Virus record (IMG/VR): IMGVR_UViG_3300044825_000639
Coordinates: 1 to 27,776 of that record
Source of the DNA: a virus
DNA: 27,776 nt
Reading direction: 5' to 3' (one strand)
The notes beneath the pieces were generated by a model that worked only from the letters and a program-made list of their open reading frames with translations, did no database searches and was not told the origin of the DNA. Positions 5,825 through 21,892 of this stretch are shown one piece after another (the stretch's first letter is position 1; each line of letters starts with the position of its first letter). The position numbers were made by a program, and so were the translations under genes.

Positions 5825-6190
5825 TCATCCGGCTTGTGCCGAATCTCTCTTTTGAATTTCAGCGGCCAGCGCCACGTAGGCGACCGCATCAACATACGAA
5901 TCAGCGTGGCCCGGACTCTCGACCAGCCGGGACATTTTCAGCCATGCCATGCAAAGCGCGACCTCATGCGCCTTGACATCAACTCCCAAGACTTGCGACC
6001 AGCCGACCGCGATCCTCTTGTGCATCTCATAGGCATCGCCATAGTCACGCGCCCGATCCCCGTCGATAAGTTCACCGGCAGTCTTCAGAACCGACTGGCG
6101 GATTCCTATCATCTCTTGAACAACGGGACTCAAGCCGGGATGGTCACCATCAACCGGATAGCCAGCTTCAATCATGGTCTGCGCGTTCAT
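5825..6190 (-). CDS. DUF6378-like phage protein, 121 residues
   Basis: Last gene of the leftward operon. The core DRARDYGDAYEMHKRIAVGW, then a VDVKAHEVALCMAWLKMSRL helix and DSYVDAVAYVALAAEI, matches the small helical phage family I know as DUF6378. Its role is not established; the pattern of conserved acidic residues and helices recalls MazG-like all-alpha pyrophosphatases, but that is inference. The start at 6190 has GGAGGG 3 bases before it and overlaps the preceding gene by 23 bases, so an in-frame ATG at 6175 is less likely. Confidence 0.75.
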   Translation of the reverse strand: MNAQTMIEAGYPVDGDHPGLSPVVQEMIGIRQSVLKTAGELIDGDRARDYGDAYEMHKRIAVGWSQVLGVDVKAHEVALCMAWLKMSRLVESPGHADSYVDAVAYVALAAEIQKRDSAQAG

Positions 6191-6497: not shown

Positions 6498-6734
6498 CTA
6501 ATTCCGCTTCTCATCCAAGAATACATTCAAACGATGCTGGATGCGGGTGACATGGTACAGCGTCTCGGGAACGTCCGTCGTAGACACGCACTCGTAGACA
6601 TGCGTGTCCTTCGTCCGCCCGATCAGGATAAGCTCTGAGTACCTGTCCTTCGCCGCCTCCATGATCTTCTCAGGCGTGATCTCATCCTTCTCTGGATGGC
6701 TTGTGCCGGGGAAGTGAACGATGTTGTCACTCAT
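6498..6734 (-). CDS. Hypothetical protein, 78 residues
   Basis: Begins MSDNIVHFPGTSHPEKDEIT, an opening that I recall from small phage proteins next to primase-helicase genes. The middle region (ELILIGRTKDTHVYECVSTT) is beta-like, and a helix follows. No enzymatic motif. Start overlaps the primase-helicase stop as ATGA. Confidence 0.65.
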   Translation of the reverse strand: MSDNIVHFPGTSHPEKDEITPEKIMEAAKDRYSELILIGRTKDTHVYECVSTTDVPETLYHVTRIQHRLNVFLDEKRN

Positions 6735-8470
6735 AGCGTGAACCCTTCATTTGCCTGATCTTCTTGTTGCATTTCCTGATACTGTGTCGTGCCGACATTG
6801 TAAAGCAAGTTTGTCTGACCCTGCTTTCCAACCCACGAAAAGCGGCATTTCCAGACATGGATCTGAGCAATCGTTGGAGCATCCTTTTCGCGGTGGACTG
6901 TAAGCCCGCAGTCAGCCTTCGCAAACCACGCTGCTGATCCGCTAATATCAAATCCGCCGGGTGGAGGAATGCGGCCATCAGCGCCGCGCTGCATCTTTGT
7001 TGGATGAGCGACAAACCAGATGTGTATGCCGTGCCCCATCGCAAAAGCCTTAACCTCAGTGAGCATATCAGAGATCCACTCCGTCTCGCTCTTGTCCCGG
7101 TTATCACGGCTAATGAAATTGTAGGGATCAATAACAGCCCCACGAATGCCAAAACGAAGGATAGCAATGCGCAGCCGGTCCAGAATGCCGTCAAGGTCAG
7201 CAAGGCTACCATCGTCCTGATGTACGAACGAAAAGTGGCCGTTGATGTGATCGAATGCGGCATTGGCCTCTTCCTTGTTCATGCGCCTGTGGTAGCCGTC
7301 AAAAAAGTGAACCCCGGACCTCTTCGACATGAGCTTGGCAATATGAAAACGGGGTTCGTTCTCGAAAGAGCAAATGCCGAACTTCCAACCCTTCGATGTG
7401 GAAAGGTTGATCATGATCTGGTCGATGAACTCGGACTTGCCGCTCGAAGGAATGCCGGTCACAATCGTAACCTGCCCGGGCACTACCGTGTATAGCTCAT
7501 CCACCGATTCATAGCCCGTAGACTCGCCCCTGCCGACGCCCTTGTCGTATAGCTCCCATACAAGATCCCGAAACCGCTCGGCATCGTAGAGACCTTGGAC
7601 CGGCCACGGGGTCGGCTCGGATACTGCTTTCCGAAGACCTTCCGCGCCATGTTTAAGAAGCACATCGTTCGAATCTTTTGAACCTTCGGGGAAGCCGACG
7701 CGCCAGCAGCGCTCTTTGCCAACACGCCGCGCAATCTCTTCAGCGAGTGCTTCTCCCGGAGCATCTGCGTCCGTCGCAATAACAATCCTCTTGGCGGCAT
7801 CGACATACTCCTTCGCGTCCCAAAGGAACTTGAACTTCCGGTCTTCCGTCGGGTCTATCCTGCCTTCTGTGACCTTGAGGTTAGCCCCGTTCGGCACAGA
7901 TATGGCGTTTACACCAACCTCCGCCATGGCAAGGACATCCATCTCTCCTTCGACAATGATCAGGTCATCACCAACCTTGAGGCGGTCCAGTCCAAAGAAT
8001 GTGCCGGGGCCGTTGGTGCAAGCGAATCCCTTGCCCTCAAGCTTGCGGTGCTTGATTGCCTCAAGGCTACCCTTCTTGTCGAAGTACGGAAACCCGAGTG
8101 CCGGGGTGCCTTTGTAGTCGTCGCCGATCAGCCTGAACTTTGCTGCCGTTGCTGCGGATATGCCGCGCGAAGACAGGAATTCATAATGTCGCTCATCAAG
8201 GCTGTCATATTCGTTGACTGCCTTGAGCTGCTTCCGTTCTTCCATTTTTGCATACCCCTTATGCGTTTCTTGCAGCCACACAGCCCCGGCAACCCCGCAG
8301 TCGCCGTGGTAGCAACTGTACATGATGGCGTCGTAGCCCCTGTTGACCGAGAGGCAGGTGTCGTGCTTCTTTTTTCGAGATGAAGAACACCACGGACAGG
8401 TGTATCTGTGCTGTCCGGTTCTGGTGTTGTTCACCAGCCAAAGTTCTTCTTGTGAAAGATTGGAGAGCAT
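6731..8470 (-). CDS. T7 gp4-type primase-helicase
   Basis: 579 residues, close to T7 gp4 length. It should unwind the fork and make RNA primers. Zinc-binding domain: C25, C28, C53 and C58 (CPWC, then CYHGDC). TOPRIM primase core: VEGEMD (E175) and TDAD (D234, D236). DnaB/RecA-like helicase: Walker A GIPSSGKSE (339-347), Walker B-type GAVIDPYN (444-451), and the HPTK motif (489-492). The ATG at 8470 overlaps the upstream stop (TGATG) and has GGAGGG four bases before it; an extended frame to 8524 would run through the upstream gene. T7-like primase-helicases usually work with a phage polymerase, which is absent here. All key residues look intact. Confidence 0.93.
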   Translation of the reverse strand: MLSNLSQEELWLVNNTRTGQHRYTCPWCSSSRKKKHDTCLSVNRGYDAIMYSCYHGDCGVAGAVWLQETHKGYAKMEERKQLKAVNEYDSLDERHYEFLSSRGISAATAAKFRLIGDDYKGTPALGFPYFDKKGSLEAIKHRKLEGKGFACTNGPGTFFGLDRLKVGDDLIIVEGEMDVLAMAEVGVNAISVPNGANLKVTEGRIDPTEDRKFKFLWDAKEYVDAAKRIVIATDADAPGEALAEEIARRVGKERCWRVGFPEGSKDSNDVLLKHGAEGLRKAVSEPTPWPVQGLYDAERFRDLVWELYDKGVGRGESTGYESVDELYTVVPGQVTIVTGIPSSGKSEFIDQIMINLSTSKGWKFGICSFENEPRFHIAKLMSKRSGVHFFDGYHRRMNKEEANAAFDHINGHFSFVHQDDGSLADLDGILDRLRIAILRFGIRGAVIDPYNFISRDNRDKSETEWISDMLTEVKAFAMGHGIHIWFVAHPTKMQRGADGRIPPPGGFDISGSAAWFAKADCGLTVHREKDAPTIAQIHVWKCRFSWVGKQGQTNLLYNVGTTQYQEMQQEDQANEGFTL

Positions 8471-8661
8471 CAGCCCTCCGGATCGGCAAGCTTTACGAGG
8501 GACTGGTGCCCGTGCATGGGGCATTCCGCATTGATCCAGAATGCCGTCCAGCTTTCACCGTTGCCGGAAGCCGGAATGCCTTTGCCGCGACGGTTGTCCA
8601 TAACAGGGCATGAGCAGCCTTGTTCCACTGCTTCGCTGCTGCCGGGGTTTGGTTTTGTCAT
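8470..8661 (-). CDS. Small Cys/His-rich protein, 63 residues, putative zinc-binding
   Basis: Contains GCSCPVMDNRRGKGI, later FWINAECPMHGH. Two Cys, then Cys and two His, could bind one zinc. Similar small proteins precede primase genes in phages as far as I recall; function unknown. ATG at 8661 follows AAGGAGG by 6 bases. It ends PEG-stop, whose GGAGGG primes the primase-helicase start. Confidence 0.65.
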   Translation of the reverse strand: MTKPNPGSSEAVEQGCSCPVMDNRRGKGIPASGNGESWTAFWINAECPMHGHQSLVKLADPEG

Positions 8662-8684
8662 GTTGTCCTCCTTAAAGACCGCCA

Positions 8685-8713
8685 ACCATATCACGAAGCA
8701 GATACACCATCAA
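8685..8713 (-). promoter_or_regulatory. Putative extended -10 promoter for the primase operon
   Basis: On the minus strand: TTGATG (8713-8708), 17-base spacer, TATGGT (8690-8685), with TG one base before the -10 box. Start near 8678 leaves a short leader containing AAGGAGG. If active, it would leave the structured gap outside the main message. Confidence 0.4.
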
Positions 8714-9048
8714 GCCCTATTTCCTATACCCTTGAGTTCAGATCGTTAGATCTTTGGGCTAGGACCAATAGGCGAAGAACCCCGGCATTCCTGCCAAGGT
8801 TCTTCCGCCCGGTCAACTATACCCTTTGAGACGAGTCGTTGAGTCTCGGGGTCTGACTTAGGCACCTAGCCAGACTTTGCAGCCACTTCCAAGCGCATGT
8901 GCCGCGCCAGCCGTCCCCGCTTCTGCATTACGGACTGCGGTTGCCTCTGTGGACGATCCCCGTGGTAGAGGCAGGCTGATCGTACCCCACCGTGATTTCT
9001 CCGTCGGTACGACCAGATCTTTAGGCTAACACAAGGCGGGGTGCTTTC
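8714..9048 (-). other. Structured non-coding gap before the primase operon
   Basis: About 335 bases without a credible gene, rich in inverted repeats that form best as minus-strand RNA. Upstream to downstream on that strand: CGTACC/GGTACG (9011-9006 with 8986-8981), TGCCTCT/AGAGGCA (8973-8967 with 8948-8942), GTCTG/CAGAC (8875-8871 with 8855-8851), then two related units (8852-8817 and 8758-8724) each holding a hairpin inside a CCC/GGG clamp and ending GGGTATAG, with a 14-bp hairpin between them. It may be a regulatory leader, an RNA gene or a protein-binding region. No known RNA family was recognised. Confidence 0.5.
8774..8805 (-). other. 14-bp RNA hairpin with GGAA loop
   Basis: Minus-strand arms GAAGAACCTTGGCA (8805-8792) and TGCCGGGGTTCTTC (8787-8774) enclose GGAA, a GNRA-type tetraloop. 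Two of the pairs are U-G wobbles, which become C-A mismatches on the plus strand, so the structure favours minus-strand RNA. GGC/GCC and GACC/GGTC flanks can extend it. Confidence 0.6.
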
Positions 9049-9396
9049 TCAAGCCCCCCTTTTCTTGTCTACATCGCCTGTGTGTGACTCGACGTAGGTA
9101 CGCACTAAGAACCTGAATTCCATAGCCTTTTTGAATGCTCGCTTGCGGTTCCGATCCTTGAGCAATGCAGAAATTGCATGCCTGATATGCGCAGGATCGA
9201 GGCCAGCCATACCGCACACGATCTCGAAGTCTTCGTGGGCGATCCAGTCGGATACCTCCTTCCGGATCGCCCGATCTCTTGACGTAGCGTCAATAACAGC
9301 CTGCGCCATGACGTGCAGCCACAGCACCCGCTCCGGTTGAAGAGTGGGGTCTGGGAGCGTCATCAAAAACGCATAGCTGCTCTGACTATTCTGCAT
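9049..9396 (-). CDS. Hypothetical protein, 115 residues
   Basis: Helical protein containing RVLWLHVMAQAVIDATSRD, then DWIAHEDFEIVCGMAGLD and PAHIRHAISALL, with a basic C-terminus. This pattern recurs in phage proteins next to replication genes, but the family has no known function that I can name. Its start overlaps the preceding HNH gene by 11 bases and has a poor ribosome site; an ATG at 9363 is the alternative. The structured gap follows its stop. Confidence 0.6.
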   Translation of the reverse strand: MQNSQSSYAFLMTLPDPTLQPERVLWLHVMAQAVIDATSRDRAIRKEVSDWIAHEDFEIVCGMAGLDPAHIRHAISALLKDRNRKRAFKKAMEFRFLVRTYVESHTGDVDKKRGA

Positions 9397-15546: not shown

Positions 15547-16361
15547 ATTTCGCAAAGCTGTTCCGGCTATACGAGGCTTCGCCGGGGTTTGATAAATTGT
15601 CTCCCCGCTCGAAGCAAGCCTACGTCTACTGCTCGAAGAGGCTTGAGGACGAGCTTGGCAAGGAGGACGTGTCCAACCTTCGCCGCTCCACGTTCCTCGC
15701 AATGCAAGCCCGTCTCCGTCACCGTCCGGCACTGGTTAACCTGATGACCCGCGTTGCCTCTGTTACGATGTCCTATGGCGTTGACATGGACATCATCCCG
15801 GCGAACCCCGTTGCGGGGCTCAAGTCCTTGAAGATTGGCTCTCACGTTCGCTGGGAACCCGACGAGGTCAGGAAGGTGATTGCCCTGAATGATAGGAAGA
15901 TCTCTACGGCGGTGGCAATCGCGTGGTACACCGGCCAACGCGAGTCCGACATCCTCGGCTTGCGCTGGTCCGACATCGACGATGGCTACCTGTGCATTAC
16001 GCAGCAGAAGACCAAGCGTGAGTTGAAGATCCGGCTTCACAAGGATCTGATCGACTATCTGGACGCCATTCGCAATGGCGACCCCGAAGACTACTTCATC
16101 GTGTCTGGTAAGGTGCGTATGACGGACGGCGCTTTTCGTGCGGCATTCCGCAGGAAGATGGATGGGATCGGTATCGAGAAGACGTTCCACGGCATCCGCA
16201 AGGGCGTTGCTTCGTCTCTCGCGGAGAACGGAAGCTCTATAAACGAGATAGCCGCCATCCTTGGACACAAGTCCATACGAATGGCGGCGTACTACGCGGA
16301 ACAGGCAAGCGGGAAGAAGCTGGTCGAGAATGCTGTTAGCAGCATCACGTCCTGCGTTTAG
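15543..16361 (+). CDS. int: Tyrosine-recombinase integrase
   Basis: 272 residues, a short integrase with an N-terminal SAM-like core-binding domain (LSPRSKQAYVYCSKRLEDEL). Catalytic set: R133 in TGQRESDILGLRW, K156 in QQKTKRE, H216 and R219 in FHGIRKG, H242 in LGHKS, and the nucleophile at Y250 or Y251 in AAYYAEQAS. It should recombine phage and host attachment sites. All residues are present, so it looks active. It lacks a large arm-binding domain. Translated with the preceding gene by an ATGA overlap; its stop overlaps the stop of the convergent giant virion gene. No attachment site or repressor was found beside it. Confidence 0.93.
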   Translation: MNFAKLFRLYEASPGFDKLSPRSKQAYVYCSKRLEDELGKEDVSNLRRSTFLAMQARLRHRPALVNLMTRVASVTMSYGVDMDIIPANPVAGLKSLKIGSHVRWEPDEVRKVIALNDRKISTAVAIAWYTGQRESDILGLRWSDIDDGYLCITQQKTKRELKIRLHKDLIDYLDAIRNGDPEDYFIVSGKVRMTDGAFRAAFRRKMDGIGIEKTFHGIRKGVASSLAENGSSINEIAAILGHKSIRMAAYYAEQASGKKLVENAVSSITSCV

Positions 16362-19300
16362 GAGAAGAAGCTGGGGTATTTGTAGTCTACGTTCTCTTCG
16401 TAGAGCTTTCCAACCCGTCCGGTGATCTCTTCAATCTGCTTCTGCAACATCTCAATCCTCCGGCGCTTCTCCTCCGGAGGAATTTTTTCGTTCTCCCGAA
16501 GCTTCCTTACTTGGGCCGCAAGTTGGTTGCGCCGGTTTGCAAGGGCGCGAACCGTTGGGTATATCTTCAATTCGTCGGCAAACCTTGCCCTAACACTCTT
16601 CACGCTCTCTGGGTCTCCGCTCTTCATCGCGGACTTTAGTTCCTCACCACGAGCGAGGACATGATTGACCTTGTCAAAGTAGTCCTCGAAGGATATGCGC
16701 TCCGATACGTTCCCGTAAACCTTCCTGAAGAACGGGATGTCGTTTGCGTCAAGGGCCTCAAGATCGCCGTTCAGTGCGGCTGGTATCTTATTGGTGGCGG
16801 TGTCGTAGGTCCTACGAACAAACGCGCCCAATCCGCCAGTGAAGTAGTCGTATACGTACTCCAACACCGCAGGATTAAGGTCAATCGCTCCAGACACATA
16901 CTCAGAGCCGCCCGTGGCCTCGTTTAGGAAGTCAGCAGTCTTTTTGAAGAATGGGCTTGTTGATGTCCAATAAAGCTGGCTGTTGGCCTTCGGGACTGAT
17001 CCGGGGAATGGTTCTGGGTAGATCCTTCTCCCCGTGAAGTCTTGATTGATTGTGAGCGCGACAAGCGGGTCAACAGCCGTGGGCGACAGGAAGTTCAAGA
17101 GGCTTTCCGTCCCACCAATCGGATTGAAGGAGTCAATGAATGTTGATCCTATGGACGTCGCCGCCTCTGATGTCTTGTATTCACCGCGAACGCTCCTTGA
17201 CACCGCGCGACCAGCGTTCACAAATGCGTTGAACCCGTAAGGGAGGGGAATGGCAAAATAACCATTCTCGGTAATGCCCGTTGGATCCATGATGATGAGG
17301 TTGCTTTCAAGCTTGTAGTTCGGGATCTTGTCGTACAAAAGCTGTCCGTCATCATCCTCGTCGGACATCAAGCTGTTTATAATGTCTTGAAGCATTCCGA
17401 CAACAAACAGACCGGCAAATGCACGGCGAACCTTCTTCGAGCGGCCAGCGGCCATCGCCATCGCCAGAGTTCCCTGAACGGAGGCGTTGTAGAAAAGGTA
17501 CAAAGAATTCAGGAAGGGACCGTAGACGCCACGCTTGTCAAAGTTTACGGTCAGGTTCTTTGCGATCTGCGCAGCCCTCTTTCTTGGGACGCCAGCCTCA
17601 ATGGTGTTCTTGTAGACAGAGAGGCGAATGGCGTTTTCAAATGCCCCGTTCATGTTCTCAAGCATGTCACGAACGAAGCCAACGGCCTGACCAGCCCTCT
17701 TCATCGGAGACCCGCTCTGGCCTTGGGTTAGCTTCTCAATTTCCCTAAGCCTGTCGTTTAGCGTGAAGGTTCCGAAGAAGCCGTTTGTATTTCCACCATC
17801 CTCAAGGAACATCTTGTACCAGTCCGACCAAGCGTTCTGGGTGCCGGGGTTCCTCAGTATTTGGTGTACGCTTCTTATCGCACCTACGGCGTCTTTGAAA
17901 ACGCTCTTCTTGATCCCGTCAATCTCGTACTGAGAAATGTTTATCAAAGCCGTCTGTAGATCGCGCGGGAAGTTGACGAGCATGAACTCTGGATTGAGCG
18001 CCGTATTCACGGATGCCAGCCAGCGGTTTGTTCTCTGAAGGAAGTTAAGCGCCTTCTCGGCAATGTCTGGGCTTCCCGTCTTCTTGGACAGAAGAGCCTT
18101 CTGAAGGAATGGGTTGTCAATGCGAATTGGTATTTCTTCGCCGTTCCTCTTCACAACAAGAACTTCATCGCTGTTCTTGTACATCGGGTCAACCATGGAC
18201 TTAACGACGCCCTTGGATGAGATGTACTTCTTGAGCGGCTTCTTTCCGCTGACGATAACCTCGACGCCCTGCTGCGCCGCGAGTTCTGGGTTGTTCTCAA
18301 TGAGGCCGAGGAGCGAAAGGCCGACCTTGTTCTTTTCTGCCCGGATCAGTGCTTCTGTATTCTGCAAGATGGCGTGAGCCACAAGATCGGACGCCCTTGA
18401 GTGGCGACCAAAGGCCCGCATATCTTCACGGCCACGGATCTTGAAGCCCTGACCAACGCGGGCGCGGAGTTCTTCCTCAATCTCGCCTTCCGTTACAGAC
18501 TCATCAGCAAAACCCCGGAGAGGAACGTAGTTATCGTACTGCTTTATCCTTACGGGGTTTCCGTTTTCATCGTTCACAAACATCTGATCAAAGTCGGGCG
18601 TCAGTCCGGCATCAACGCGAAGCTGGTTCGTGTCGTCAACGATCCTGCGGAACATATCTCTTGCCGCGTAGAAATCGTTTCTCCGGGGATCCGCATCCAC
18701 CGCAGCAACAATTGCTCGTGCGTCTTCGTCGGACATGCCGGAGCCAAGTGCCGGGTCTGCGTTGGGGTTTATTTCACGGATGCGCTCATTCCTCTCTGGG
18801 GCATGAAGGCCATAGAGATAGTCCTCAAACTCCGCGAGAGTGATGTTGTTTTCCCTCAGGAAGGTGAAGAGCGGGGTGTAAAGGTCTTGCTCCCTCTTGT
18901 CTAGGAAGTTGCCAACGCGGCTGCGCATGAGATCTTCGTGCATGGCGGCGTCTAGGGCATCTGGCACGGTGCCGCCATTCTGACGAATGAAATCAACGAA
19001 CTGCCCAAGAGGCAGCATCTTGTCGGCAAAGTTCTGGATTAGGCGCGTCCATGTTGTTTTGTCCGGACGGTAAACATCTGGCACAAAGAACGTGGCAATC
19101 TTCCCGGTCCTTGAGTTCATAACTCGGTCAAGAAGATTTACAGCAGCCCCGTATTCTACAGCATGCTCAACGCGGTTAACCTGTGCCGCGTTAACCTCTG
19201 GAACTCTTTGCTCGTATGGATATTCGGGAGAATGCGCCAGAGACGGAAGTTGAGGCTTCGCCATGACACGCTTCTCGCCGGGGGTGAGAATGCGAGACTT

Positions 19301-21892
19301 GGGCTTCTGTCGCTCACGAGCGCCAATAACACCGGACTCAATGTCACGGAATACATCGTCGTAACCCTGCCTGCGCATGTTATTGAACATGCCGCGCACA
19401 GCCTCGACAACACGATTTATGAGGCCCCGAACATTGCTGGGAGGCCCAAGCTTCTTCAAGCGCCAGTCGCGGAACATCTCTGCGACCGCTTCCTCTCGTA
19501 TAACGGCGGGGTTCTGATATACGGCGTTGGTCCTGCCAAGCGGCTCGTATATCGTCTTGGCGCGATCAAGGTATGTGTATTTCTTCCCCGGCACCAAGGT
19601 CTCACCGGCTGCACGAAGAAGCATGCTCATCTCGTTTTCGCGGATGAGGCCGAGCGTGACAAGAGAGTGTATGGACTCGTGGTTTAGCACCTCGAATACC
19701 CTGTCCGTCAACTGCTCGACAGTTAGATCTGGATCATAGATGCCGGTGGCAATCGTAATGACAGACTTGCCACCGGGATTTGATTGTTCGCCAAGGGTTG
19801 CGCGGAACCGAAGATTGTCCATGAAGGCGGGAACAAACTTTGTTTGAACATCCTTGAGGCCGTACTTGTTAAGCTGATCTCGAACCCCGGAGGATATCTT
19901 GTCAATCCGCTCATCCATGCGCTTGCGGATCGCCTCCTGCTCTTGAGCGGATATAACCTCTATGTCAGCTTCAACATCTGCCGTGCCGACTGGCTCCGAG
20001 ATTATAGGCTCAGCAACGGGAACGGATGCGGGGGCAACGGCCTCGGCAACCTCTTTCGGGGTTGCAACTGTGGGTTCGGAGATGGGTGGATCAGACACCT
20101 CAACAATTTCATTTCCGGGATGATAACGCCTCCCGTTGTCCCAGACCTCTAGCGGCATAAGGCCAACCGAAGGTTGAGCAAACGTCTTTACGTCGGTATC
20201 GGGGATGAATTCATTTGCTTTCGGGCCATCAATGTACTTTACGCCAATGACGCCGGGTTCCCTTTCGGCCACAACAGGAGTGCCGGGGAGATCGTCTCTG
20301 CGCAACTTGCCAAGGTTGTAAAGATCCTCTGGGCGAATGAAGAAGGTCTTCTGAGACTTCTCCTTGACACCCACATCCGTAGGTGAGTGACCCGGATGCA
20401 GGCTCTTCACCCGAACTGTGCCGCCATCGGGGAAAAGCGTGTACTGAGACCCCATGGATGTCTTGAAAATCTTACTCGGCTTCAGCCCCTCGCCAAAAGA
20501 CGGCTTGGGAGGCTCTGGAGCGGCTTCCGCTGCTGGCGCTACCTCTGGGGCCTCAATGGCCGAAATGCCAGCCTCTGGCGCTCCCACGGGCTCCGCTGCG
20601 GGTGCCAATGGTTCAATCTTGGGGGCGGGCCGGGTTCCGGGCTTGAGTGTCTCAGTGGGGATCGCCTGTCCAGTCACAAGGTTCTGGAGGTTGACCTTCT
20701 TTCCGGCAATCTTTTGGTACTGGTTTACGGCATCAACCGCGTTAACGGGGTCGCTGAATTCAGCGATCTTCGCCCCCTGAAAATCAGTTACGTGATACCG
20801 CTCTATCGGAGCGCGAAGTTTGTTCTCCGGCGTTGGTTCAATGCGGATCTTGTTAAGCTTCAGCGTACCAATCTTGGGTTGTGCCGACAACTGCTCAACG
20901 CCGGTATTGATCTCGGCAAAGCGACCCATCTCGCGGGCCTGCTGCTTTTCAGTTGCGATATCACCGCGAAGCTCTGCTTGAGCCTGAACCCGCTCGGGGG
21001 TTTGTGCCGGGGCTGCAATTCTGGCGACGGTCTCAGCGCCACCACCGATAACACCGCCAGCCAATGCGCCCGCAGCAGCGGCGTTCAGAAGCTCGTTCTG
21101 AACCGATGCGTCGAACTCAAGAAGCTTTTCGGGGTTTGCCTGTGCAAGCTCAATCGCCTGCTGAGCGGGCTCGGTGAGAGCCTCTGTGCCCGCTATTGTG
21201 GCGACCTCCTTAAAGAAGGATTTCTTTGCCGCATCGTAAGCAATACCGGCACCCGGAAGCTTCCTTGCGACAAGAACATCAAATGCCGCGTCAAGGGGGG
21301 CCTGCGCAACAGCGCCAACAGTCGCAGCCGTGCCGCTGGTTTCCTCAAGCGGGATGCCCTGCTCTTGAGCCTGACGCTGAAGGTTTCCGCCAATAAAGAA
21401 TGGCAGCGAAGCCAAGGCGCTGCCTATAAGCGCACCAATGGGAATCGTCACAGGTGCGGCTGGGCCACCCAGCGCACCGACTGAAGCACCGACAAGAGCG
21501 CCACCAATTCCAACAGCAGTCTCGGGCGCAGATTGGGCAATGGTGGAACCTGCAAACTTAGCTACATCGCCGACGCCCTCAATCTCGGAGATGTCGGCAA
21601 CATCCGGCTTGTACTTGGCAGCGTAATCCTCGCTCTCTCTGGAGGTATCAAAAAGATATTGCGAGAGATCCTCAAGTCCAGCCGCTTGAGCAGCCTTGCC
21701 GCCCGCCGCACTGAGTCGGCCAATTGACGAATAGAATCCAGACTGAAGAGCGCCAATGCCCTCCTCCGGAACTGGTGCCGAAGGAGTTTTCGGGTATTTC
21801 GCAATAACGTAATCAACGACCTGTTGATCCGTCATGTCGTCGGGAAAGCTTAGTGCCCGACCGGCTTCCGGTACGTACAGGATTCTTGGCAT
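16358..21892 (-). CDS. Giant LPD38-type internal virion / polyvalent protein
   Basis: 1844 residues, last gene of the virion operon. N-terminal domain (residues 1-40), Gly/Ala-rich hydrophobic segment (about 125-170) that could insert in a membrane, a second such stretch (AAAAGALAGGVIGGGAE), Pro/Ala/Glu-rich linkers (about 420-470 and 610-645), a possible metallopeptidase motif HESIH (738-742), and, from about residue 1285, RWLASVNTALNPEFMLVNFP and following sequence typical of the LPD38 domain of phage polyvalent proteins. The C-terminus is a coiled coil. Such proteins are packaged in the particle and thought to enter the cell with the DNA. The ribosome site is weak (GAG). The stop overlaps the integrase stop, with no terminator between. 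Confidence 0.8.
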   Translation of the reverse strand: MPRILYVPEAGRALSFPDDMTDQQVVDYVIAKYPKTPSAPVPEEGIGALQSGFYSSIGRLSAAGGKAAQAAGLEDLSQYLFDTSRESEDYAAKYKPDVADISEIEGVGDVAKFAGSTIAQSAPETAVGIGGALVGASVGALGGPAAPVTIPIGALIGSALASLPFFIGGNLQRQAQEQGIPLEETSGTAATVGAVAQAPLDAAFDVLVARKLPGAGIAYDAAKKSFFKEVATIAGTEALTEPAQQAIELAQANPEKLLEFDASVQNELLNAAAAGALAGGVIGGGAETVARIAAPAQTPERVQAQAELRGDIATEKQQAREMGRFAEINTGVEQLSAQPKIGTLKLNKIRIEPTPENKLRAPIERYHVTDFQGAKIAEFSDPVNAVDAVNQYQKIAGKKVNLQNLVTGQAIPTETLKPGTRPAPKIEPLAPAAEPVGAPEAGISAIEAPEVAPAAEAAPEPPKPSFGEGLKPSKIFKTSMGSQYTLFPDGGTVRVKSLHPGHSPTDVGVKEKSQKTFFIRPEDLYNLGKLRRDDLPGTPVVAEREPGVIGVKYIDGPKANEFIPDTDVKTFAQPSVGLMPLEVWDNGRRYHPGNEIVEVSDPPISEPTVATPKEVAEAVAPASVPVAEPIISEPVGTADVEADIEVISAQEQEAIRKRMDERIDKISSGVRDQLNKYGLKDVQTKFVPAFMDNLRFRATLGEQSNPGGKSVITIATGIYDPDLTVEQLTDRVFEVLNHESIHSLVTLGLIRENEMSMLLRAAGETLVPGKKYTYLDRAKTIYEPLGRTNAVYQNPAVIREEAVAEMFRDWRLKKLGPPSNVRGLINRVVEAVRGMFNNMRRQGYDDVFRDIESGVIGARERQKPKSRILTPGEKRVMAKPQLPSLAHSPEYPYEQRVPEVNAAQVNRVEHAVEYGAAVNLLDRVMNSRTGKIATFFVPDVYRPDKTTWTRLIQNFADKMLPLGQFVDFIRQNGGTVPDALDAAMHEDLMRSRVGNFLDKREQDLYTPLFTFLRENNITLAEFEDYLYGLHAPERNERIREINPNADPALGSGMSDEDARAIVAAVDADPRRNDFYAARDMFRRIVDDTNQLRVDAGLTPDFDQMFVNDENGNPVRIKQYDNYVPLRGFADESVTEGEIEEELRARVGQGFKIRGREDMRAFGRHSRASDLVAHAILQNTEALIRAEKNKVGLSLLGLIENNPELAAQQGVEVIVSGKKPLKKYISSKGVVKSMVDPMYKNSDEVLVVKRNGEEIPIRIDNPFLQKALLSKKTGSPDIAEKALNFLQRTNRWLASVNTALNPEFMLVNFPRDLQTALINISQYEIDGIKKSVFKDAVGAIRSVHQILRNPGTQNAWSDWYKMFLEDGGNTNGFFGTFTLNDRLREIEKLTQGQSGSPMKRAGQAVGFVRDMLENMNGAFENAIRLSVYKNTIEAGVPRKRAAQIAKNLTVNFDKRGVYGPFLNSLYLFYNASVQGTLAMAMAAGRSKKVRRAFAGLFVVGMLQDIINSLMSDEDDDGQLLYDKIPNYKLESNLIIMDPTGITENGYFAIPLPYGFNAFVNAGRAVSRSVRGEYKTSEAATSIGSTFIDSFNPIGGTESLLNFLSPTAVDPLVALTINQDFTGRRIYPEPFPGSVPKANSQLYWTSTSPFFKKTADFLNEATGGSEYVSGAIDLNPAVLEYVYDYFTGGLGAFVRRTYDTATNKIPAALNGDLEALDANDIPFFRKVYGNVSERISFEDYFDKVNHVLARGEELKSAMKSGDPESVKSVRARFADELKIYPTVRALANRRNQLAAQVRKLRENEKIPPEEKRRRIEMLQKQIEEITGRVGKLYEENVDYKYPSFFS

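Follow-up and report, generated by a model that had tools for sequence, protein, structure and literature searches.

An untranslated gap next to the DNA primase/helicase gene of a viral record (IMG/VR IMGVR_UViG_3300044825_000639, positions 1-27,776; the window in the following, 27,776 bases) almost certainly holds a structured minus-strand RNA. Comparative analysis of related phage genomes shows structure at the level of the RNA, the strand on which it lies, its single copy per genome and its fixed position; several of the helices are pseudoknots, and on the same comparative grounds their base pairs are under selection. As none of the 4227 families of Rfam 15 matches the RNA at the gathering threshold, it represents a new RNA family; no description of it was found in the open-access papers covered. 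Whether it is a product in its own right or the leader of the primase operon is more finely balanced, and we lean towards the former: the RNA is probably an independent phage RNA, which would be made as a discrete transcript from its own promoter and act in trans.

The gap ahead of the primase operon

On the minus strand, a 115-residue gene is followed by the gap and then by the primase operon. According to the reading of open reading frames in the window, the gap spans 387 bases (8662-9048), between the stop codon of the 115-residue gene (9049-9051) and the next start codon (8661). The original prediction of some 335 bases without a credible gene was right as to the existence of the gap, in which there is no minus-strand open reading frame of at least 40 residues (8662-9048) and plus-strand frames are short, but it underestimated the length. 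The compensatory changes described below favour RNA over coding sequence here. The features of the locus are the following:

9049-9396, minus strand, 115-residue gene with no family in PHROG, Pfam or NCBIfam; upstream neighbour in all relatives, homologues 45-100% identical
9023-9052, minus strand, promoter-like site P1 of the extended -10 type, directly before the RNA (TTGAGA - 18 nt ending in TGn - TAGCCT)
8722-9018, minus strand, structured RNA gene, inferred extent (folding z -3.73 sense versus -1.67 antisense; covariation)
8685-8713, minus strand, promoter-like site P2 between the RNA and the primase operon (TTGATG - 17 nt - TATGGT)
8473-8661, minus strand, 63-residue open reading frame after the RNA, with the Shine-Dalgarno sequence AAGGAGG at 8667-8673
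6731-8455, minus strand, DNA primase/helicase (TOPRIM plus DnaB-type helicase; PHROG 239, E 5.8e-90; Pfam Toprim, DnaB_C), the downstream gene in all relatives

The RNA is bounded by the two promoter-like sites (P1, 9023-9052; P2, 8685-8713) and hence extends from about 9018 to 8722; its 5' end was placed about 6 nt after promoter-like site P1, which overlaps the end of the 115-residue gene, and its 3' end by the last repeated loop motif, both approximately. The inverted repeats noticed in the gap are real, in that the fold of the minus-strand RNA reaches -141.1 kcal/mol (z = -3.29), a value matched by none of 100 shuffled sequences, although a simple inverted-repeat reading misses several helices that form pseudoknots. 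The expected preference for the minus strand is likewise borne out, the plus-strand fold reaching only z = -1.42; for the homolog L015 taken alone, energy favours the fold of the antisense strand. Independently of folding energy, the non-canonical cells among the conserved core pairs comprise eight G.U and no A.C. A plus-strand RNA would have left A.C cells here; the functional strand is accordingly the minus one.

Two further open reading frames of the window attracted our attention. A 121-residue frame (5825-6190, minus strand) has matches among PHROGs annotated as phosphofructokinase, which is surprising for so short a phage protein, and an 1844-residue frame (16358-21892, minus strand) matches very large phage proteins (PHROGs 14770 and 616) as well as, weakly, a DarB-like antirestriction protein.

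Relatives and a second RNA in the same slot

Relatives were gathered by homologs of the 115-residue gene, by homologs of the primase and by matches to the RNA pattern. They share the order RusA-like gene, 115-residue gene, gap, primase, in some cases with an endonuclease VII or other HNH gene between the first two, or with a small open reading frame between gap and primase. Three near-identical contigs (L002, L003, L004) and four diverged phages (L015, L006, L112 and L113, with 86%, 77%, 59% and 52% core identity to the window, respectively) have homologs of the RNA at this position, one copy per genome, and core identity among the homologs goes down to 49%. In these close relatives the gap is thus neither absent nor unstructured nor coding, the outcomes that would have spoken against the original prediction. 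The small open reading frame behind the RNA is variably present, whereas the RNA persists: frames related to the 63-residue one are present in L015, L006 and L014 and missing or truncated in L002, L003, L112 and L113. In the near-identical relatives, which retain the RNA, it is cut to about 12 codons (L002:2290-2330, same position in L003), so that the 63-residue frame is dispensable.

The genome of L015 is represented by a contig of 63,236 bases (IMGVR_UViG_3300043399_000170; L164-L167), which carries a 195-base direct repeat at its ends and therefore probably is the full genome of a member of the group. It encodes terminase and portal, identifying the group as tailed phages. As far as the sequence searches reach, the RNA family is so far limited to one small group of such uncultivated phages. 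At the sensitivities used, we detected no DNA similarity to annotated phages or plasmids and no match of the RNA pattern in bacterial and archaeal (GTDB) genomes; the RNA was found in none of the cultivated phage, plasmid or bacterial genomes searched, nor in the distant primase relatives L017-L079, and looser RNA patterns returned from viral contigs only chance matches and members already known. A search of 274 genomes of one bacterial class also gave no match, but had no positive control and says little.

Two phage lineages carry something else in this position. Behind the same promoter and between the same neighbours, L014 and L109/L110 have, in the regions L014:1595-2701 and L109:3366-4491, another structured RNA, different from the first and about 350 nt long (folding z -4.0 and -3.4), which is followed by an HNH open reading frame. 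One of its helices, GGCAACC/GGUUGCC, becomes GUCAACC/GGUUGAC between L014 and L109, and the RNA has no match in Rfam. Its homology to the window RNA is unsupported, as models R1 and R2 (see below) give 3-9 bits, off position; a short shared ACAG..GCAA.CCGyAG after the second hairpin leaves a distant kinship of the two sequences open.

Compensatory changes and the pseudoknotted fold

Covariation is visible already on three close members: the first model (R1, alignment A5), built from the window, L002, L015 and L006, contains seven pairs with double changes. As a covariance model, R1 finds the RNA in the same genomic place in L112 (49.4 bits, E 3.6e-9) and L113 (37.9 bits, E 8.9e-7); both sequences had been fetched only via a neighbouring protein, so that these matches are an out-of-sample success of the model. 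In the joint alignment A7 of the 129-nt core, 96.9% of cells pair, and compensatory double changes affect 21 of the 33 base pairs, in 31 cells. None of 500 shuffles reached the observed paired fraction, number of double-changed pairs or number of double-changed cells, and in slid controls, in which partners were moved by 1-3 columns, 35-44% of cells paired, with 4-8 double-changed pairs. The compensatory changes go beyond all controls, which is our mark of a structured RNA. In line with a selection on pairing rather than on sequence, stem columns of the core are less conserved (0.59 identity) than unpaired ones (0.65). The stems of the homologous gaps are, in other words, conserved with compensatory changes, as had been proposed for an undescribed phage regulatory RNA or leader.

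The core and the helices within and around it are as follows, with arm sequences given for the window first:

8847-8975, minus strand, conserved 129-nt core (models R1/R2); the covariance model matches L015, L006, L112 and L113; 21/33 pairs double-changed
8976-9016, minus strand, helix P1 (9016-9006 with 8986-8976); arm sequences differ, yet 7-11 pairs form in all five divergent members; loop with conserved GACGG...ACGGUGGGG
8943-8972, minus strand, helix P2 (8972-8967 with 8948-8943); 3/6 pairs double-changed; GCCUCU/AGAGGC, L112 GUUUCU/AGAAAC, L113 GUCGUU/AGCGAC
8911-8956, minus strand, pseudoknot helix P3 (8956-8951, in the P2 loop, with 8916-8911); 4/6 pairs double-changed, 100% of cells paired; UCGUCC/GGACGG, L015 CUAUCC/GGAUAG, L112 CUGGCC/GGCCAG
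8917-8940, minus strand, helix P3a (8940-8937 with 8920-8917, CCGC/GCGG); largely invariant and only weakly tested, with 90% of cells paired
8878-8927, minus strand, helix P4, crossing P3 and P3a (8927-8923 with 8882-8878); 3/5 pairs double-changed; UGCAG/CUGCA, L112 GACAG/CUGUC, L113 UGCAU/AUGCA
8893-8907, minus strand, hairpin P5 (8907-8904 with 8896-8893); 4/4 pairs double-changed; GCGC/GCGC, L112 ACAG/CUGU, L113 GGGA/UCCC
8851-8875, minus strand, hairpin P6 (8875-8868 with 8858-8851); 7/8 pairs double-changed
8959-8994, minus strand, loop-loop contact PKa, hand-read; GUGG of the P1 loop (within 8994-8985) with CCAC of the P2 loop (within 8968-8959)
8757-8871, minus strand, long-range contact PKb, hand-read; UAGG of the P6 loop (within 8871-8863) with CCUA of the 3' tail (within 8765-8757)
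8775-8804, minus strand, hairpin P9 (8804-8798 with 8781-8775); arm sequences differ among five members, all pair
8817-8836, minus strand, loop motif 1, ACUC[GUCUCAAA]GGGUAUA; retained with a pairing stem in L015, L113 and L112, absent from L006
8725-8744, minus strand, loop motif 2, the second copy (GAACUCAAGGGUAUA); by eye in L015, L113 and L112, absent from L006

Alignment A7 was fitted to R1, whose structure holds P2, P5 and P6, with P3, the re-read P3a and P4 lying outside it. Since P3 and P4 are absent from the R1 structure and nevertheless 100% paired, with four and three double-changed pairs, respectively, fitting bias does not explain the result, although P4 was re-read on L112 and L113, the same sequences on which it was scored, which flatters this helix somewhat. 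An earlier P4 pairing, GCAGUC/GGCUGC, was dropped, as only UGCAG/CUGCA covaries once L112 and L113 are included. Outside the core, helices P1 and P9 and the contacts PKa and PKb are hand-read pairings in five members, without controls. The arms of PKb pair in all five, with a shifted register in L112 and GCGG/CCGC in L113, and PKa, which reads GCAG/CUGU in L113, rests on one compensatory change event.

By eye, the two loop motifs change together, reading GGGUAUA in the window and L015, GAGCAA in L113 and GGGUAA in L112, which suggests that both loops meet one common partner; the reading comes from four genomes, and L006 lacks the motif. No further exact copies of loop motif 2 occur in the window. 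The motif CUCAAGGGUAUA was rejected as a genome-wide site, as its other matches in the window carry two mismatches and some of them look coding.

Transcription, proposed role and known systems

The promoter pattern used here, TTG-N17/18-TAnnnT with TG one base before the -10 element, stands directly before the RNA in all relatives, whichever type of RNA they carry; as a sequence pattern, the architecture of promoter-like site P1 recurs in the same place in L015, L006, L014, L109, L112, L113, L002 and L003. The 63-kb genome of L015 holds three matches to the pattern against 3.5 expected by chance, two of them flanking the RNA, so that on pattern counts the number is ordinary and the placement unusual. 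The third and sole remaining extended -10 promoter-like site of this genome lies at L164:2947-2976 (minus strand). Equivalents of promoter-like site P2 are found in L015, L006, L002, L003 and L113 (TTGACA-17-TACAGT, without TG, in the last), with a doubtful one in L112 and none in L014 or L109.

The presence of this second site in most relatives is our main reason for preferring an independent RNA over a leader, and the main doubt comes from the missing terminator: the stretch from the RNA to the primase operon showed no intrinsic terminator, and transcripts from P1 may therefore read through, as those of a leader would. The explanation that we consider best, with odds slightly in its favour, is that the gap encodes a phage RNA of a new structured family, some 300 nt long and read from the minus strand. 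Transcription would start at the RNA's own sigma70-type extended -10 promoter (9023-9052). The hairpins P1, P2, P5 and P6 would be tied into a compact core by the crossing P3, P4, PKa and PKb, and the 3' domain would present two loops with the same CUCAA motif. Given the second promoter-like site that separates it from the primase operon, the RNA would be made in its own right and act in trans, early in infection together with the replication module, most likely as a scaffold or decoy that may bind a host or phage protein via its conserved loops. More speculatively, and with rather less confidence, it may stand for a new class of phage RNA machine, compact and multiply pseudoknotted, with an early host-type promoter of its own and acting in trans on host replication or defence machinery; the slot before the primase would then be reserved for such RNAs, and in some relatives its occupant would be another structured RNA, either unrelated or far diverged, that is paired with an HNH gene.

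The strongest competitor, which we regard as unlikely though worth serious attention, is a cis-acting leader of the primase operon, in which the RNA would be the 5' untranslated part of the P1 transcript and serve in attenuation, ligand or protein sensing, or modification of RNA polymerase for read-through of later terminators, in the manner of the HK022 put RNA. In every relative the RNA begins immediately behind a promoter and has the same gene after it, as expected for a leader, and the lack of a terminator before the operon fits as well. However, the second promoter-like site in the window, L002, L003, L015, L006 and L113 would bypass such control, and neither a terminator/antiterminator nor a switch sequestering the Shine-Dalgarno sequence is evident near the start codon. 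To our knowledge, known antitermination RNAs are also smaller and have fewer pseudoknots.

An element of the replication origin, with the P1 transcript as a primer (R-loop or RNA II-like) or with single-stranded DNA hairpins loading primase, is improbable. The RNA does adjoin the primase/helicase gene, in keeping with the proposed replication-linked site, and in the window as well as in the 63-kb relative the cumulative GC skew changes direction close to the locus; this turn coincides, however, with the change in gene orientation, and being confounded in this way was discarded as evidence for an origin. G.U without A.C pairs points to RNA rather than DNA hairpins, and neither iterons nor an AT-rich unwinding region were noticed.

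A ribozyme or the remnant of a self-splicing or homing element is still less probable. Its appeal lies in the helix order P3/P4/P5/P6, which resembles P3/P7/P8/P9 in the catalytic core of group I introns, in the 3' repeats of the RNA, which we take to resemble phage introns and which together with this helix order gave rise to the group I idea, and in the HNH open reading frame behind the different structured RNA in the same spot of L014 and L109. Unlike that core, the RNA has no P4-P6 domain, no conserved P7 sequence and no splice context, lying between genes and not inside one; at E up to 5-10, Rfam searches with the window, L015 and L006 gave no meaningful match, including to ribozyme and intron models, and the group I intron was rejected. 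In the same database, L076:1445-1525 weakly matches the Proteo-phage-1 RNA (E 0.96), the best conserved part lying over the start of a small open reading frame (codons NPGS), so that some coding sequence may have entered the Proteo-phage-1 family. Chance folding or a missed protein gene can practically be dismissed, as the long open frames that cross the RNA in L015 and L113 are met by a TAA stop in the window in the frame open in L015, by the 21 double-changed pairs and by stems more variable than loops, and the covariation refutes it unless the alignment is wrong.

The result adds an uncatalogued RNA small enough for structure work, for which a pseudoknotted structure with statistical tests, a search model and inferred boundaries are available. 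Its tie to one neighbourhood, the replication module, offers a concrete lead to function, and replication-module gaps of uncultivated phages can evidently hide RNA genes.

Among known systems, the put antitermination RNA of phage HK022, a short pair of hairpins that modifies RNA polymerase to read through later terminators, is likewise a folded RNA right after a phage promoter and ahead of early genes; our RNA differs from it in its length of about 300 nt, its crossing helices and the second promoter-like site behind it. With the antitoxin RNAs of ToxIN/AbiF-type systems and their phage mimics (PMC3475682) it shares a pseudoknotted RNA and a motif that occurs twice, but the copies sit in hairpin loops rather than in tandem repeats, and no toxin gene was noticed adjoining the RNA. 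In kind, it is closest to ROOL and GOLLD, large ornate RNAs of phages and prophages, which belong to the few large, intricately folded phage RNAs known and whose functions are open questions (PMC12286853). The Rfam models of both gave no match in the window, where there are also no tRNA genes near the RNA, as would be typical of the ROOL/GOLLD location, and where ARAGORN predicts no tRNA or tmRNA gene. The RNA described here thus differs from them in fold, in size, with about 300 nt against some 600 to over 800 nt, and in place, adjoining a primase gene instead of lying near tRNA arrays; like them (PMC12286853), it is phage-encoded and non-coding and has many pseudoknots and loop contacts.
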